A stretch of 64,000 bases of DNA from Thuidium tamariscinum (taxonomy: Eukaryota; Streptophyta; Bryopsida; Hypnales; Thuidiaceae): assembly GCA_947034885.2 (NCBI GenBank), contig OX344751.2:2728001-2792000 (forward strand), given 5' to 3'. Each line of letters opens with the position of its first letter. Within the stretch, counting starts at the first letter, position 1. Positions 47,477 through 63,655 of this stretch are shown here, in pieces. The notes under the pieces were generated by a model. That model was not told where the DNA came from. It was given only the letters and a program-made list of their open reading frames with translations, and searched no databases. The position numbers were made by a program, and so were the translations under genes.

Positions 47477-47849
47477 TACATAACATTAGTAGCCTTCAGA
47501 GAGGCTGCCTTTCCCTCTCTGACGGCCCTCATCCATGAAAAACATGCAGATGAGGAACTAAAGTGTAATAAAGAAGATTTGTTTTACTATTAATTGTACT
47601 GTAGTTTTCTGCTGTGACTTGGCATTGCCTAACTAAGTAAACTTCACCATTTGACAATTTCGACATGTGTAACACATATCAATAGTTATTGATTTTGGTG
47701 TGGAATATTTCACACCAATTCATCCCATGGATGAAATGATGTGATATATTCCACATCATTCCGTCAAACTAGAGGTAGGTTGGAGTGTTGCTACAAAACA
47801 TTATGTAGAACACTCCTCAATTTCAACTTGTGTGTCCAAGAAAATTGAT

Positions 47850-48900
47850 TGAAAGAAGTTTTGAAGTGTTTAGAATACAAGTTTCAAAGTGTTTTAATCC
47901 TCTTGAAAACTTGAATTGGTGCCTTCAAATTCTAAAGTATCATTTGTCCCTTCAAGAGACAATATGATTTTTGAACAATTTTCTATGAGCTCAATTTTTG
48001 GTAAAACTTTTTGAAACTTTCTAACAAGATAGAAAAACTTACTAGCTTTTTGGAATTTCTAATTTTTATTTCAATTAGTGTCTAAGAGAAATTTATACTA
48101 CAAAAATTGAAGTTAAAGCCTTGTACTAAATTTAGTAGGTAGGAAAAAATCAACCAAAACTTGAAATCAATTTTTTTTTTTAATTTTCTCAAATCATATT
48201 TTATTTATATGGAAAGGTTTAGTTCATTCCATTTGGATTTGCAATGTGATACTCATGGAACATCTTGTCTTACACGAAATCAAAACATATTTTCAAGAAA
48301 ATAGTGTATAGGACTTGTTTTTGAGCTCAATTTTCTCATTTTTTTCAAAAAATAAATTCCACAAGGTTAATTTTGATTGTTAAGACAATCTTACTACTGA
48401 AATGAGTGTATCTTAATTCTATCTTAGAGCTATTAATGATCTAGTTTTTCCATCTATCACTTACATTCTTCTACTTGACAATTTTGTAGTAAATGAAAAT
48501 CATATTGGTTTTCTAATTTTTAATTTTATTGTTTTCTCAATTGAATTTCTCATTGCTAAATAATTTTAATTCAAAGTTTATAGTACAAAAATTTTAAGTA
48601 AAGAAGATTCACAAATTCTTATAAACTAATTTGCTAACATGCCAAAAAATATGATTTTTTCACTTTGAATACATTTATTTTGTAATCTATGCATCAAAGT
48701 GTTTGATATTTTTAATGCACATTCTTAGACTAGTGTACTATAAGATCTTATAGTTAGATATGCAAAAAAATATTTATATTGAATTTCTTGCTTCTTGCAC
48801 TAGGAATGGCAATTTTGAGTGTTTTTTGATGAAAAACAAACCTTGAGACTTTACAAGTTAAAAACACTTTGTGAACAATCTATCTTATTTAAACTCTAAG
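47850..48900 (+). repeat. Module A, copy 1, of a collinear dispersed repeat
   Basis: Several ordered blocks match 61490-62280 in the same orientation: CATTCCATTTGGATTTG / CATTCCATATGATTTTG; GAAATGAGTGTATCTTAATT / GAAATTAGTGTATTTCAATT; TCTTAGAGCTATTAATGATC / TCTTAGAGTCAATAATGGTT; ATGGCAATTTTGAGTGT in both; CCTTGAGACTTTACAAGTTA / CCTTGGGACTTTAGGAGTTA. No coding frame survives in either copy. Ends are approximate. Class unknown. Confidence 0.7.
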
Positions 48901-49992
48901 CCAATTTTGATCAAAGGAAAAATTAGAGAATTTAATATTTTTAGACCCATTAAAATTAATTTTATTAAATCCCCCAAAGGACTATTCTTTCTCAAACAGG
49001 CAATTAAAAATTTGGTTAGGTGTAGACAATGTCAATTAGAATGGATCTTTTGAAATCTTGTCACACTGAATAGACACATACTACCTCTATGAATAAGATT
49101 TTGGGTTTTATTTTTTTCCTTAGTTCGGTGTCCAAATCAAAAGTTATATTGCTTATAAACTGGAAAAGAAGAAGGCAACATTAAGCAACAAAAAAAAAAA
49201 TCTCAATTCACATATTGTAACTTTACAATCTATTCCAACAAAGTTTTCACAATTTTTATTTTTTCCATTCATTTTGATTTGAAGTCAAAAAAAATTTACT
49301 AAGTGGGTGAAGAAGAAGAAATTCAAAGCAAAGGGCAAAGGGAGGATGTTGTCAAACCTCAAAATCTTCTATTCTATATGTTCCATTTTTGCCTCTGTAT
49401 AAGATTAAACAAATTGTTTTTATATTTAAATTGGGAGTCATATATATATGTCTTAAAAAATTTAGAGTTTTTTGTGAAGAATTCTTAGAAGAATTCAAAT
49501 TACAAAGAATTTTGAACAAAATGAGAAGAAAACTCTTATCAAATACAATGCAATCAAAAAGATTGATGAAAATTTCTCCATAGACTGATTTTATGGTGCT
49601 AATTATATTAGTGTAAAGCTAAATTTTGTCTTGTTGTAATTGGTATAGAATTGTAGTCAAATATTCTTAATTTCAAATTGTTGTAAAATACTCATTTAAA
49701 AAGAAATTTAAGTTCTTAAAGCAAGTACAAAGTAGTTTTGAGAAACTTCATTTACTATCAAAAAGAGAAATATATCTTTTTGAATGTCAAAGTCAAATTT
49801 TAAGAATAGAAATCCAAAAATATTAATATAAAATACACATGATTTTTGATTTTTTGAAACATAATCCTCCATCCAATGAAAAATGAACCAACTCAAATAG
49901 AACTTATAATAGAAAGTAAACCAATAGTTAAAACCAACCCTTTTCTTTCTAACACCATGGGGCAAGATTGCAGTGACTGCCTCTTTTGAGCT
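48901..49992. other. AT-rich sequence between modules A and B
   Basis: Short frames at 48871-49053 and 49303-49583 are AT-driven and lack motifs. 49708-50043 on the minus strand is a Phe/Tyr-rich frame from AT-rich DNA. Treated as the middle of the dispersed repeat copy 1. Confidence 0.5.
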
Positions 49993-51077
49993 CATTGTGA
50001 CAAACTGTGTCACAATGAGCTGAAAAACTGAAAAAATTGACACAACCCCCCCAAATCTGATTTAAACATTAAATTAAATTTTTTTTAACCCCCTTCCCCA
50101 CCCAATCTGATGTAAGTATTAAATTTTAAGTTTTAAAATTGTTTAAATTTATAAATCCACCCTCCCCCCACCCTCTTATAATTCTGAGAGGGTGGGTTGG
50201 GAGACAAAGATTATGGGACAATGACATTCAATATTAGTACCGTATTCGTATTTGTATCCGTATTCTGTACCCATACTCTGTATCCGTATTTTGTACCCGT
50301 ATTCTGAACCCGTATCCTGTACCCGTATCTTGTACCGTATCCATATCCGACGGTTGTTGATTTTTCTTGGAGGGGGGGGGGTGGGATTTTTTAAAATTCA
50401 AATCCAATGGCTGCTGATTTTTCTGATGAGGGAGGGGGTAGGAAAATTAACAAAAAGCAGTGACAGCCACTTTTCGCCACATTGTGACAAACTTTGTCAC
50501 AATGAGCTCAAAAACTAAAAAAATTGAAAAATTGAATTATTTCGCCTCCCCCCCTCCCAATCTGATTTGAACATTAAATTTTAAATATTAAAATTTTTTA
50601 ACTTTTCAAACCCCCCTCCCCTCCCAATCTGATTTAATTATTAAATTTTAAATATTAAATTTATTATTTTTGAAACCCCCTCCCTCCCACCCCTCTTATA
50701 CTTCTCACAGGGTGGGCTTGGTTACAATGCTTATGGGACAAATGGGGTAATACCATATCCGTATTTTGTACGAGTTTCAGTATCCGTATCTGTATGGTAT
50801 CTGTATTTGGTATTAGTATTAGTATTTAATATCAGTATCCGTATTCTATATTATGTATTTTGTATCTATACTTTGTACCAGTATTTCCTACCCGTATTTT
50901 GTACTCATATGCAATATCCGTATTCTGTATTCGTATCCGTATCCAACGGCTTTTGATTTTTCTTGGGGGGGGGGTGGGATTTTTTAAAATTCAAATCCAA
51001 CGGTTCTTGATTTTTACTGATGAGGGGGGTTAGGAAAATTAATCCAACAGGGTGTGCTGCCTCTTTTCGTCACATTG
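49993..51077 (+). repeat. Module B, copy 1: two tandem units headed by palindromes
   Basis: Each unit runs: palindrome (CATTGTGACAAA...TTTGTCACAATG), C/T-rich tracts with CCAATCTGATTTRA and TTAAATTTTAAATATTAAA, an AGGGTGGGYTTGG block, a minisatellite of TATCCGTATTCTGTACC, then CAACGGYTNTTGATTTTTCT, a long G run, AAAATTCAAATCCAACGG, and TGCCTCTTTTCGTCACATTG, which leads into the next palindrome. Unit starts are at 49993 and 50480, and the last boundary is near 51073, so units are 487 and ~593 bp. Not coding. Related single unit at 63148-63655. Confidence 0.8.
50480..50504. repeat. Perfect 12-bp-arm palindrome with one central base
   Basis: CATTGTGACAAA and TTTGTCACAATG flank a single C. The upstream sister at 49993-50017 has the same arms with one mismatch (CTGTGTCAC). 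It could be a protein-binding dyad or a cruciform-prone recombination point at the unit junction. Confidence 0.9.
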
Positions 51078-60332: not shown

Positions 60333-61489
60333 AATATTGTCAATTCTAAAATTTGGTGAGTTAGACATGTAGGGAGGTGCTCATGTTCAATTGGTTTCTT
60401 CCAAATAGAAATTGTATGGATTTTTTTATTTGTTTTTTTTTAATGTTTTTGAATTGCAAATGATTTTTTCCAATTCCAATGGTTAACTATAAACAAGCAA
60501 TATTCTCCAATCATTGATCATGGATGAGTGAGAAATTACTTGGTCAAATGGTTCAAAAGCACAAGGCAAGTGCAAAATTACAATTTTAGCTCAAAGTGTT
60601 GAATTTGAATAGTTGATGGAAAGTTGTTGCAAATACCCAAATTTTTTTTGTAGGTTGCTTTATAATGAATGAACAAGCATCTATAATGCACATTCAACTC
60701 ACCTAAATTGATTTTATATTGCTACACAATGTCTCTAAAGTACCACATGTTATCTCTATTAATTGACTAAAAGCAACTAAAACATAGATTATTATTGTAG
60801 GCATGAAGAAACTTTAGTGTTCTTTAAAGCATCAATGCAACATTCTAAACAATAGCCTAAATATGTTTCTATCTTTTGGTTAATGTAAATTAAAACTTAA
60901 GAATACTATTGGCATAGAAGTGCATGACAAATCACATGACAAAAGACCAAAAATTTCACCTTCAGACAACAAAAATAGAATCCATATGAAGCAAGATACA
61001 AGGCCAATAACCAAAAATAGACAATAAATTAGAATTAAGACATAAGAGGATTTTCAGCTGCTATACAAGACTGCAAGTTCCCAAACGTTGGGAACGCATT
61101 GGGAACTCTAGGAACGTGATGCTGATGTGGTCGAGCGACTGCCACGTCAGAAAATATTAATTTTTTATTAACTTTTATTAAATATTAAATATTTTTAAAA
61201 TATTTTTTTGAAAAAATAATCATTTTTTAAATCATTTTTTTCTCTTTAATACATTCTGAAGTTTTTTGAAAAAAAAAATTTTAATTTTTTTTTTCAAAAT
61301 TCAAAAATTCAGACCAGCAGGGGTCTGGTCTGCAGCAGTGGGAACAATTTCGGGGAACACCCTTGAAACGGTCTTCTGGGGGCCCAAAAATCCTCTTATG
61401 TTTGGAGACACTTGTCCAATCTCAATATTTTATGTCATCTTCTAATTTTTTTGTGAAGATAAAAACAATGCATTTAGATTTTTTAGAAT
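60333..61489. other. AT-rich sequence with a weak inverted pair
   Basis: CATAAGAGGATTTT at 61041-61054 recurs inverted at 61387-61400. In between lie GTTGGGAACGCATTGGGAAC, a T-rich stretch and a GGTCTGGTCTGCAGCAGTGG block. No target duplication was found. It may be a degraded ~360-bp MITE. The rest holds no genes. Confidence 0.4.
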
Positions 61490-62280
61490 ATAGTTTTCAT
61501 TTCATTTGGTATCTAAGAGCAAAAGTTAATTATGGCACAATAAGTTCAAATCTTATTTTAGTAGGGATAAAAGAAACCCACAAAAATTAAAAATTAAATT
61601 TTTTTGTTTCTTATAGATTGTATTTTTATTTGCATGAAAAACATTGATTCATTCCATATGATTTTGTTATCTTTTATTATCTTTGAGAAATAACTTATAG
61701 AATCCGTTTTTCAACTCAATTATGACAATTTTTTTAAAAATTCACTAAATTAATACTTTTTTGCTAATAAAAAATATCTCATCATTGAAATTAGTGTATT
61801 TCAATTCCATCTTAGAGTCAATAATGGTTTAGTTTTTCCTTCAATCTTGAAACTTCTTCTATTTAGCCGATTTTTAATGAACAAAAATTAAGTGTGTTTT
61901 TTTGGAATTTTTTTCCTAGACTTTCAATTAAATTTTTCAACATGAAAAATAAGAAACACAAAATTAACAGTGAAAAAGATTAAATTTAACGAGATTCAAA
62001 ACCAAAATATCTAGTTTACCAAGCATGGTGCAAACGAAATTTGTTTTTTTAAATTTTAAATGCAAATTTTTTGCAATCCATGAAGTCAAAGTTTATGAGA
62101 TTTTCCCAATACGTTTTTGCACTAGTCAAGTACAACATCCTATAGTTAGATTTGAGAAAAAAAAATGATCAATAAAGGTTTTTTATTCTTTACTATTATA
62201 ATGGCAATTTTGAGTGTAATTTGACAGAAAAAGGCCTTGGGACTTTAGGAGTTAAGAGGGTGGCAAATTTATCATTAAGA
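61490..62280 (+). repeat. Module A, copy 2, of the collinear dispersed repeat
   Basis: Matches 47850-48900 block by block in the same direction; see that entry. A CACTA MITE has inserted just after it at 62295-62510. Confidence 0.65.
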
Positions 62281-62294
62281 AATTTTTATACATA

Positions 62295-62510
62295 TACTAG
62301 TAGAAACCCCCGTTTAATGTGACAAGGCGTAATTTTTCTTGATGGATTTTGCTAGGGATCAAAAGTAACAACCCGTATTTTTATGTCAACAAAAATGTTC
62401 AACACAACATCAATGATGACATAAAAACACGGGTTGTTACTTTTGATGCCTAGCAAAATCCGTCAAGAAAAATTAGGCCTTGTCACATTAAACGGGGGTT
62501 TCTACTAGTG
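62295..62510. mobile_element. 216-bp CACTA-type hairpin MITE
   Basis: Left end TACTAGTAGAAACCCCCGTT, right end (minus strand) CACTAGTAGAAACCCCCGTT. The target duplication ATA is at 62292-62294 and 62511-62513. Arms of ~100 bp are almost perfectly complementary, with a short loop around TTCAACACAACA. It shares its terminal CACTAGTAGAAA with the 10118-12977 CACTA element, so that family may have mobilised it. Confidence 0.92.
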
Positions 62511-62513
62511 ATA

Positions 62514-63147
62514 CCATTTAAAAATTTTCACGAGGTCTATTTTTTGAAAGTTCAACATTTATAGCATTAATTAATTTACTCTTTATTCTCTTCCAAAATA
62601 ATTTTTAAGAAAAATGAACTTTTGTTTTACATTTAACATTTCATGGCTATAATTATAATAGTTGGATGTAGTATGGTCCTTGTATTTGTAAAATATTGAT
62701 GATAATTTAGAAAATTTCTTGAAGCCTAAAAAAAATCCAATAAATAAAGTCTTAAAAAATCGAATTTTGGGGTGGGGATTTTTGAGGGATGCTATTATAT
62801 GAGCCCATTGGCTAGAGTGTGAGCTAGTGTGTGAGCCTATGAGTCTGAAAGGCCATACACCTACAATATGAGTATCTATAATATAGAAATCTTTTCAATG
62901 ATCATGGTACATATATGTTGTAAACATCTATTATAGGTGTTTATGTTATAAATACCTTCTATGCTTGTAGAATATCTATTAAAATACATACTCAAGGCTC
63001 ACATTTTTTTGCTCACATGCTAACATTGTTGAGGGATTTTTGAGCACATGGAATGACTATGTATTCAAAAACACCACCCGTAATATCACTATAGAAAATG
63101 AAAATGTTCTCAATGATCTCTTCAATTACTACTTTTTTAAACTCATT
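62514..63147. other. AT-rich sequence within repeat copy 2
   Basis: No genes. 62800-62860 has GTGAGC/GTGAGCC motifs (GCTAGAGTGTGAGCTAGTGT) resembling, inverted, CTCACAGGCTCACACGCTAG at 21098-21118, so a small shared repeat is likely. Confidence 0.4.
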
Positions 63148-63655
63148 GCTCATTGTCATTGACATTGTGTGACAATGACAATGAGCTCAAAACAAGTATT
63201 TTCTTAAATAAAAAATTATGTGTATTAATCCCCACCTCCACCTCCACCTCCACCTTTACTTCTATTTTCAAAAAAATAGTTGTAAATACAATTGGTATGG
63301 GATATATATACTGATATGGTATGTATTTCAAATTAAGAACTTATCTAGATCCTTATTTTCCATTCAAATTAAATACCAATATGCATATTCTTGTTTAGTA
63401 TAAATTGCATTTAAATCCATATCCAAAAATTATATTTATATCCATATCCATATTTTAATATCCATATTTAGACATCTAAGGTCATTTATTCAAAGGACAT
63501 TAACGGCTTTGATTTTTTTCTTGAAGATCAACAACATTTGGAAGAGTGGAAGTTTTTTACTATAGGTTAAATCAATGACTTCTAATTTTTCCAGGAGAAG
63601 GGAGGAAATGAACCTCAAATATCATGTTTGCCTCTTTTCACCTCATTGTCATTGT
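63148..63655 (+). repeat. Module B, copy 2: palindrome plus TATCCATAT minisatellite
   Basis: Begins with the palindrome GCTCATTGTCATTG / CAATGACAATGAGC (63148-63161, 63173-63186; 11-nt spacer). It goes on with GAGCTCAAAAC, a CCACCTCCACCTCC tract, a TATCCATATCCATATTT minisatellite at 63410-63470, AACGGCTTTGATTTTTTTCT, TTCTAATTTTTCCAGGAG and TTTGCCTCTTTTCACCTCATTGTCATTG. This is the same module order as at 49993-51077, but only one unit. Confidence 0.75.

Follow-up and report, generated by a model that had tools for sequence, protein, structure and literature searches.

Repeat modules at the locus

The window, by which we mean the whole 64,000-nucleotide stretch of Thuidium tamariscinum DNA analysed here (G000:C3:2728001-2792000, within a searched genome of 363 Mb and 19 contigs), contains phosphorylase exons, for which the top solved-structure match is a chloroplastic plant phosphorylase. 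The two places of interest here are AT-rich, with a G+C of 0.26-0.34 by composition count, and carry two kinds of module, A and B. At the first place, A copy 1 precedes two B units, B1 and B2; at the second, A copy 2, in the same relative orientation, precedes a short palindromic MITE and a single B unit, B3 (Table 1). The initial ~65 bases of A copy 1 were assigned by eye. The modules contain no ORF of at least 150 aa; a stop-to-stop frame of 117 codons (49708-50061) overlaps the B1 head. The palindromic MITE has inverted ends ACTAGTAGAAACCCCCGTTTAATGTGACAAGGC, and a 33-base word, allowing at most three errors, is found in it in inverted orientation at 62293 and 62474. Directly left of module A lies an inverted repeat of 63 bp (window 47696-47758), 82.5% identical to its own inverse.

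Table 1. Repeat features of the window, as assigned by sequence comparison (L numbers denote loci of the searched genome)
Feature	Window coordinates	Strand	Assignment	Basis
Module A copy 1	47925..48863	.	Degenerate member of a ~931-bp TTAA-ended MITE family	68.5% to young copy L015 over 894 columns (window 47991-48862)
B1	49970..50485	+	Non-autonomous element, subfamily of L045-L055 and L104	97.7% to its nearest relatives, L046 and L045
B1 head palindrome	49984..50026	.		Self-inverse BLAST match
B1-B2 junction palindrome	50471..50513	.	B1 3' end and B2 inner head arm	BLAST match to its inverse in the B1 head
B2	50480..51077	+	Second subfamily (L002-L008, L059-L076, others)	96.3% to its nearest relative, L071
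Module A copy 2	61480..62256	.	Older, partial member of the A MITE family	67.0% to L015 over 488 columns and 66.9% over 181 columns
Short palindromic MITE	62293..62509	.	Separate element between A copy 2 and B3	
B3	63128..63653	+	Old, diverged B copy with tail CTCATTGTCATTGT	78.7% to L077 over 164 columns; L035 and L037-L044 match less well

Two neighbouring repeat families rather than one duplicated segment

The initial annotation read the two places as a collinear segment present twice, with B amplified in the first copy. Much of what it described is indeed present. A-like sequence occurs at both places (67.8% identity over 587 columns, E 3e-36, plus a further 199 columns, when 47.0-52.2 kb is compared with 60.5-64.0 kb), B1 and B2, at 49.97-51.08 kb, meet at a palindrome, and the second place has one diverged B (63.13-63.65 kb), which a palindromic MITE at 62.3-62.5 kb separates from A. 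The motif order given for B was also correct, namely, palindrome, pyrimidine tracts, TATCCGTAT minisatellite, AACGG-TTGATTTTTC box, purine run and CCTCTTTTC-CACATTG end; the same order is found in B copies elsewhere and is the anatomy of B, nothing special to the window pair.

The collinearity itself did not survive closer comparison. Apart from the A match, the two places share a single 40-column match, and BLAST at E 0.01 found no similarity between them in the 1.1-1.2 kb to the left of A, in the 0.9-1.1 kb that separates A from B, or to the right of B, where 1.2 kb was compared with the 0.35 kb up to the window end. Segmental duplication was rejected on this comparison of the flanking and intervening DNA. 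An ancient duplication of one A+B unit that later diverged would fit the finding that, at each place, A is followed by B in the same orientation. However, the intervening and outer DNA is dissimilar at the sensitivity used (the right side being limited to 0.35 kb), the two A copies, 67.8% identical to each other, are no nearer to one another than to L015 (68.5% and 67.0%, longest alignments), and B1, B2 and B3 come from different subfamilies. Moreover, A and B mostly occur apart in the genome: A is present in the flanks of 7 of the 73 non-window B locus records, in mixed relative orientation and with one case of nesting, and none of the 22 A loci outside the window carries B within its 1.5-kb flanks. 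(The B locus records number 77, four being the window's own; the 73 include overlaps, L034, L036 and L077 representing one place and L037 and L078 another.) We therefore regard the duplication as extremely improbable. The suggestion of a non-autonomous element holds for B, which has fairly constant ends, and is not supported for A+B as a single unit.

Amplification of B in the first copy was likewise rejected, by subfamily clustering. B1 and B2 are each 96-98% identical to copies elsewhere and 79% identical to each other, and B was therefore not amplified here; the pair consists of two subfamilies side by side. The two places are most simply explained as chance neighbourhoods of two unrelated, common repeat families.

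Module A is a TTAA-ended MITE, probably of piggyBac type

Genome searches with the two A copies gave 4,789 and 4,238 weak candidates at first look, 40 of which were scored in each case. A young subfamily was recognized, in which seven records (L012, L014 and L016-L020) are 97-98% identical to L015 over ~931 bp. The young copies end abruptly in unrelated flanks, and their ends read TTAACCCCTAAAGGACC ... GGTCCTTTAGGGGTTAA, with L014 departing at both; TTAA is present at both ends in seven of the eight, the right end of L014 being CTAA. The inverted end, as the exact 18-mer TTAACCCCTAAAGGACCA, occurs 4,488 times in the genome (reversed control, 0), and among the 100 matches listed, 30 form 15 facing pairs spanning ~0.92-0.93 kb. 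Module A is thus an abundant, non-coding TTAA-ended MITE, of which the window copies, to judge by their sequences, are old family members.

TTAA is the target of piggyBac elements, and A resembles piggyBac-type MITEs in having TTAA at both ends, short inverted repeats starting with CCCC, no coding sequence, thousands of ends and transposases in the same genome. Indeed, the genome has 116 matches to piggyBac transposase (116 scored of 658 candidates), all with E at most 1.4e-70 and many in long frames, and for this reason A is probably of piggyBac type. The same 1,023-codon frame is found in 11 of the 116. A single piggyBac end-like word was found, TTAACCCTGAAACGCCGGGCGG, with 11 occurrences, each 1,284 bp from one of those eleven domains, and this shared frame and spacing suggest recent activity. 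The word differs from the A TIR after TTAACCC, and among the ends examined (this one word) no piggyBac element has the TIR of A. In one piggyBac copy that was read, the TTAA of TTAACCCTGAAACGCCGGGCGG is at the same time that of an A-type copy end: at L109:20-967, an A-type MITE and a piggyBac element have a common TTAA, as if one had landed in the target duplication of the other. An example piggyBac locus is C2:19454829-19456028 (flanks L109 and L110). The main text of PMC9033089 on land-plant elements makes no mention of piggyBac, and PMC4438587 lists PiggyBac among the superfamilies present in all groups studied, land plants included; the match in PMC10619864 was no more than the word 'piggybacking'.

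Module B is a dispersed non-coding family

Module B is a dispersed non-coding element of 0.5-0.65 kb with at least five subfamilies, separate from A. When the whole B stretch was used as a query, places elsewhere matched either the B1 part or the B2 part, with 86-98% identity over long matches; among the 40 scored of 655 candidates (window's own included), none matched the two units together as a single stretch. When 56 extracted copies were clustered with the three window units, five groups of 29, 13, 5, 5 and 5 and two singletons resulted (window units included in the sizes), one singleton being B3. Excluded from clustering were L058, in which the hairpin was not recognisable, L056, a twin of L055, and L095, L100, L103, L105, L107 and L077-L084. 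B1 and B2 are 78.6% identical over ungapped columns, or 68.6% by BLAST with gaps counted, and B3, which is ~55% identical to each of them, represents a third, old lineage.

The palindrome is the head of the B element. The 5' end consists of a few variable bases, a small hairpin GGCAGTGACTGCC, TCTTTTGAGCTCATTGT, a variable number of CATTGT units and the inner arm TGTCACAATGAGCTCAAAA. At the 3' side, B copies finish in CTCTTTTCGTCACATTG, usually with a T after it, and some have extra CATTG or CACATTG repeats; tail repeats are present in L058, L090, L093, L108, L080 and L082. Exact head 20-mers occur 238 times in the genome and exact 3'-end 18-mers 99 times, with no occurrence of the reversed controls. 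Among the matches listed, 14 exact 3' ends on C1-C3 had no exact head within ~700 bp. Twelve of these were read, and 11 proved to be short B copies, the other, L095, being without the 5' part; L087 and L089 are B copies with internal deletions, L094 is a dimer, and L096 has an exact head beyond the matches listed. No long coding element was found at the 12 ends in the stretches read. Conversely, of 12 exact heads read that had no exact 3' end nearby, eight belong to whole short copies with an altered end; in the remaining four, L100 is interrupted, L103 is broken, L107 retains only the head, and the sequence retrieved for L105 was too short for a decision. The L107 remnant, of ~40 bp from about base 70, ends at CATTGT and was perhaps left by recombination between head and tail repeats. 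The B copies L055 (C1:15252619-15255168) and L056 (C1:15246337-15248886) lie ~6 kb apart in opposite orientation; their ends and flanks, as printed, are identical, and they are the product of either a local inverted duplication or an assembly effect.

Direct head-to-tail joints of B are found in the window and L094 only, among 78 subjects with B (window and own loci included). Both dimers join at the CATTGT common to tail and head. In addition, L083 contains two B copies tail-to-tail with 9 bp between them, and L054, L087 and L104 have a second B copy further away. In the window, the B1 tail CACATTGT runs directly into B2 GACAAACTTTGTCACAATGAGC, and the first ~30 nt of B2, present in other copies, are absent; the joint therefore lies within the shared CATTGT. 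Either B2 landed on the B1 tail with a shortened 5' end, or recombination took place there. A 6-bp word, CACCAT (identified by eye), flanks the whole B1-B2 pair and proves nothing, because matches of at least 6 occur in 8.8% of mismatched flank pairs. The idea of a satellite seed expanding through its palindrome is not borne out in the form proposed: no palindrome-driven expansion was seen among the 78 subjects, and the direct tandem dimers are the two just described.

Target duplications at the B tail

Flanks were compared for 70 locus records, of which 62 had a copy and both flanks (L058, L077, L078, L095, L100, L103, L105 and L107 were dropped). Exact matches between the two flanks reached 12 bp or more in 6 of the 62 copies, 9 bp or more in 10 and 8 bp or more in 21, against 0.08, 2.46 and 8.23 expected from all mismatched pairs. 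The six long matches (L086, 25 bp; L108, 23; L099, 16; L102, 16; L047, 15; L045, 13) start at the tail and contain TGT there, with the exception of L086, which starts with GT. Tail-starting matches of at least 7 are found in 9 of 57 copies, a number reached in none of 200 flank permutations. Three of the ten matches of at least 9 bp, those of L068, L087 and L106, lie off the junction and are probably due to chance. Target duplications are thus present in some copies, whereas 41 of the 62 have no match of at least 8 bp and 56 none of at least 12 bp. Many copies are nevertheless 93-95% identical to the window units, and the duplications are thus often very short or absent; furthermore, 8-bp matches are near background, and short ones therefore singly prove little.

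At L045, a B1-type element is nested near one end of an A copy. Its left flank corresponds to A 1-27 and its right flank to A 42-183 (79.6%), with ATTGTCCCCTTGA on both sides of the nested B. The A family here provides an empty-site reference, which supports insertion with a ~12-13 bp duplication. Collectively, B displays the variable-length target duplications at a constant 3' end that are expected of a SINE, most copies having short ones or none.

Possible mode of B propagation

B resembles SINEs in several respects: it has a similar size and no long frame, its dispersed copies number in the hundreds and fall into subfamilies, its 3' end is fairly fixed and carries a short repeated tail, and in some copies variable duplications start at the tail. 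It differs from them in its long palindromic head and minisatellite core, and a simple consensus scan of six B copies on both strands revealed no pair of Pol III A and B boxes, a lone B-box-like word without an A box being found on the minus strand of L002. Plant SINEs, in the account of PMC9033089, are tRNA-derived, Pol III-driven and mostly A-tailed. When ribozymes and known RNA families were searched for, no match came anywhere near its gathering score, neither among the 15 from the window stretch nor among the 12 from six loci. As for possible enzymes, GIY-YIG has just two genome matches, whose frames are 116 and 115 codons long, and Exo_endo_phos_2 has 31, of which 22 are in frames of more than 700 codons, this domain not being restricted to LINEs (3 of 14 control genomes also matched). 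The B tail was not found on any LINE, and the single LINE 3' region inspected (L111) has a LINE-like frame and no recognisable end. Taken together, the lack of an RNA family match and of a Pol III box pair, the two GIY-YIG matches and the 31 Exo_endo_phos_2 matches favour LINE-driven copying, with the rivals considered below retained.

We consider it likely that the window holds two transposable element families that are neighbours by chance, A being a TTAA-ended MITE probably moved by a piggyBac-type transposase and B a target-primed retroposon, most likely driven by a LINE. B RNA would end in CAUUGU. The endonuclease of another element, most likely a LINE, would nick the target and the primer strand would end in ACA(A), with which the B RNA tail would pair before being copied by target-primed reverse transcription. 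Insertion in this manner would generate target duplications that begin with (T)TGT and vary in length, and tails in which CATTGT/CACATTGT is present once or repeated a few times. New copies might sometimes land on, or join to, old tails and produce dimers such as B1-B2, since an existing tail is such a target site and the head also carries CATTGT. For an element copied in this way, a head carrying a near-copy of the 3' end is unusual. A more far-reaching proposal, that B is a new type of plant retroposon lacking a Pol III promoter, in which the CATTGT tail serves both for primer pairing and as the preferred landing site, so that new copies dock onto older tails and might found tandem arrays, appears rather unlikely.

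The resemblance between the B head GGCAGTGACTGCCTCTTTTGAGCTCATTGT and 3' end GCAGTGACTGCCTCTTTTCGTCACATTGT, which are near-identical direct repeats in some subfamilies, is what would be expected of a non-autonomous Penelope-like element with short direct terminal repeats acting as pseudo-LTRs and joints formed through linked or circular templates, an origin that we judge improbable. Penelope elements form tandem joints. They are also like B in their direct terminal near-repeats, duplications of variable length and both tandem and inverted joints, as in the window and L094 (tandem) and L083 (tail-to-tail), and they are bordered by direct or inverted repeats according to PMC9033089. However, B has neither a long coding frame nor a ribozyme match near the gathering score in the stretch and six loci, and the GIY-YIG count does not point to a source combining GIY-YIG with a Penelope-type RT. 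Moreover, head and 3' end differ in the same manner in many copies (GAGCT versus CGTCA), which suggests that the head was passed on with the element and is not a fresh copy of the tail.

DNA-mediated movement of B as a foldback, Helitron-like or MULE-like element with degenerate inverted ends has a similarly low probability. Palindromic heads, inverted arms and minisatellite cores such as those of B are known from foldback or Helentron-derived elements; in B, the inner arm of the head nearly repeats the 3' end in inverted orientation, and most copies are without a long target duplication. On the other hand, tail-starting duplications of 13-25 bp and unequal lengths would be expected neither from a cut of fixed length nor from a Helitron that leaves no duplication, and the variable tail repeats also argue against this origin. 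Helitrons and HINEs are not known to make a target duplication and have a 3' hairpin followed by CTRR. B departs from them in having duplications in a subset of copies, and its ends are CACATTG on one side and a hairpin with variable bases on the other.

Implications

The two places in the window illustrate a tempting misreading, here corrected: two unrelated repeat families, both of them common, can mimic a duplicated segment. The large piggyBac complement behind module A deserves to be studied separately in a plant genome. B is a somewhat odd non-coding family worth naming, and it offers a well-marked test case for the copying of short elements without an evident promoter in plants and for the question whether self-directed landing can start tandem repeats.
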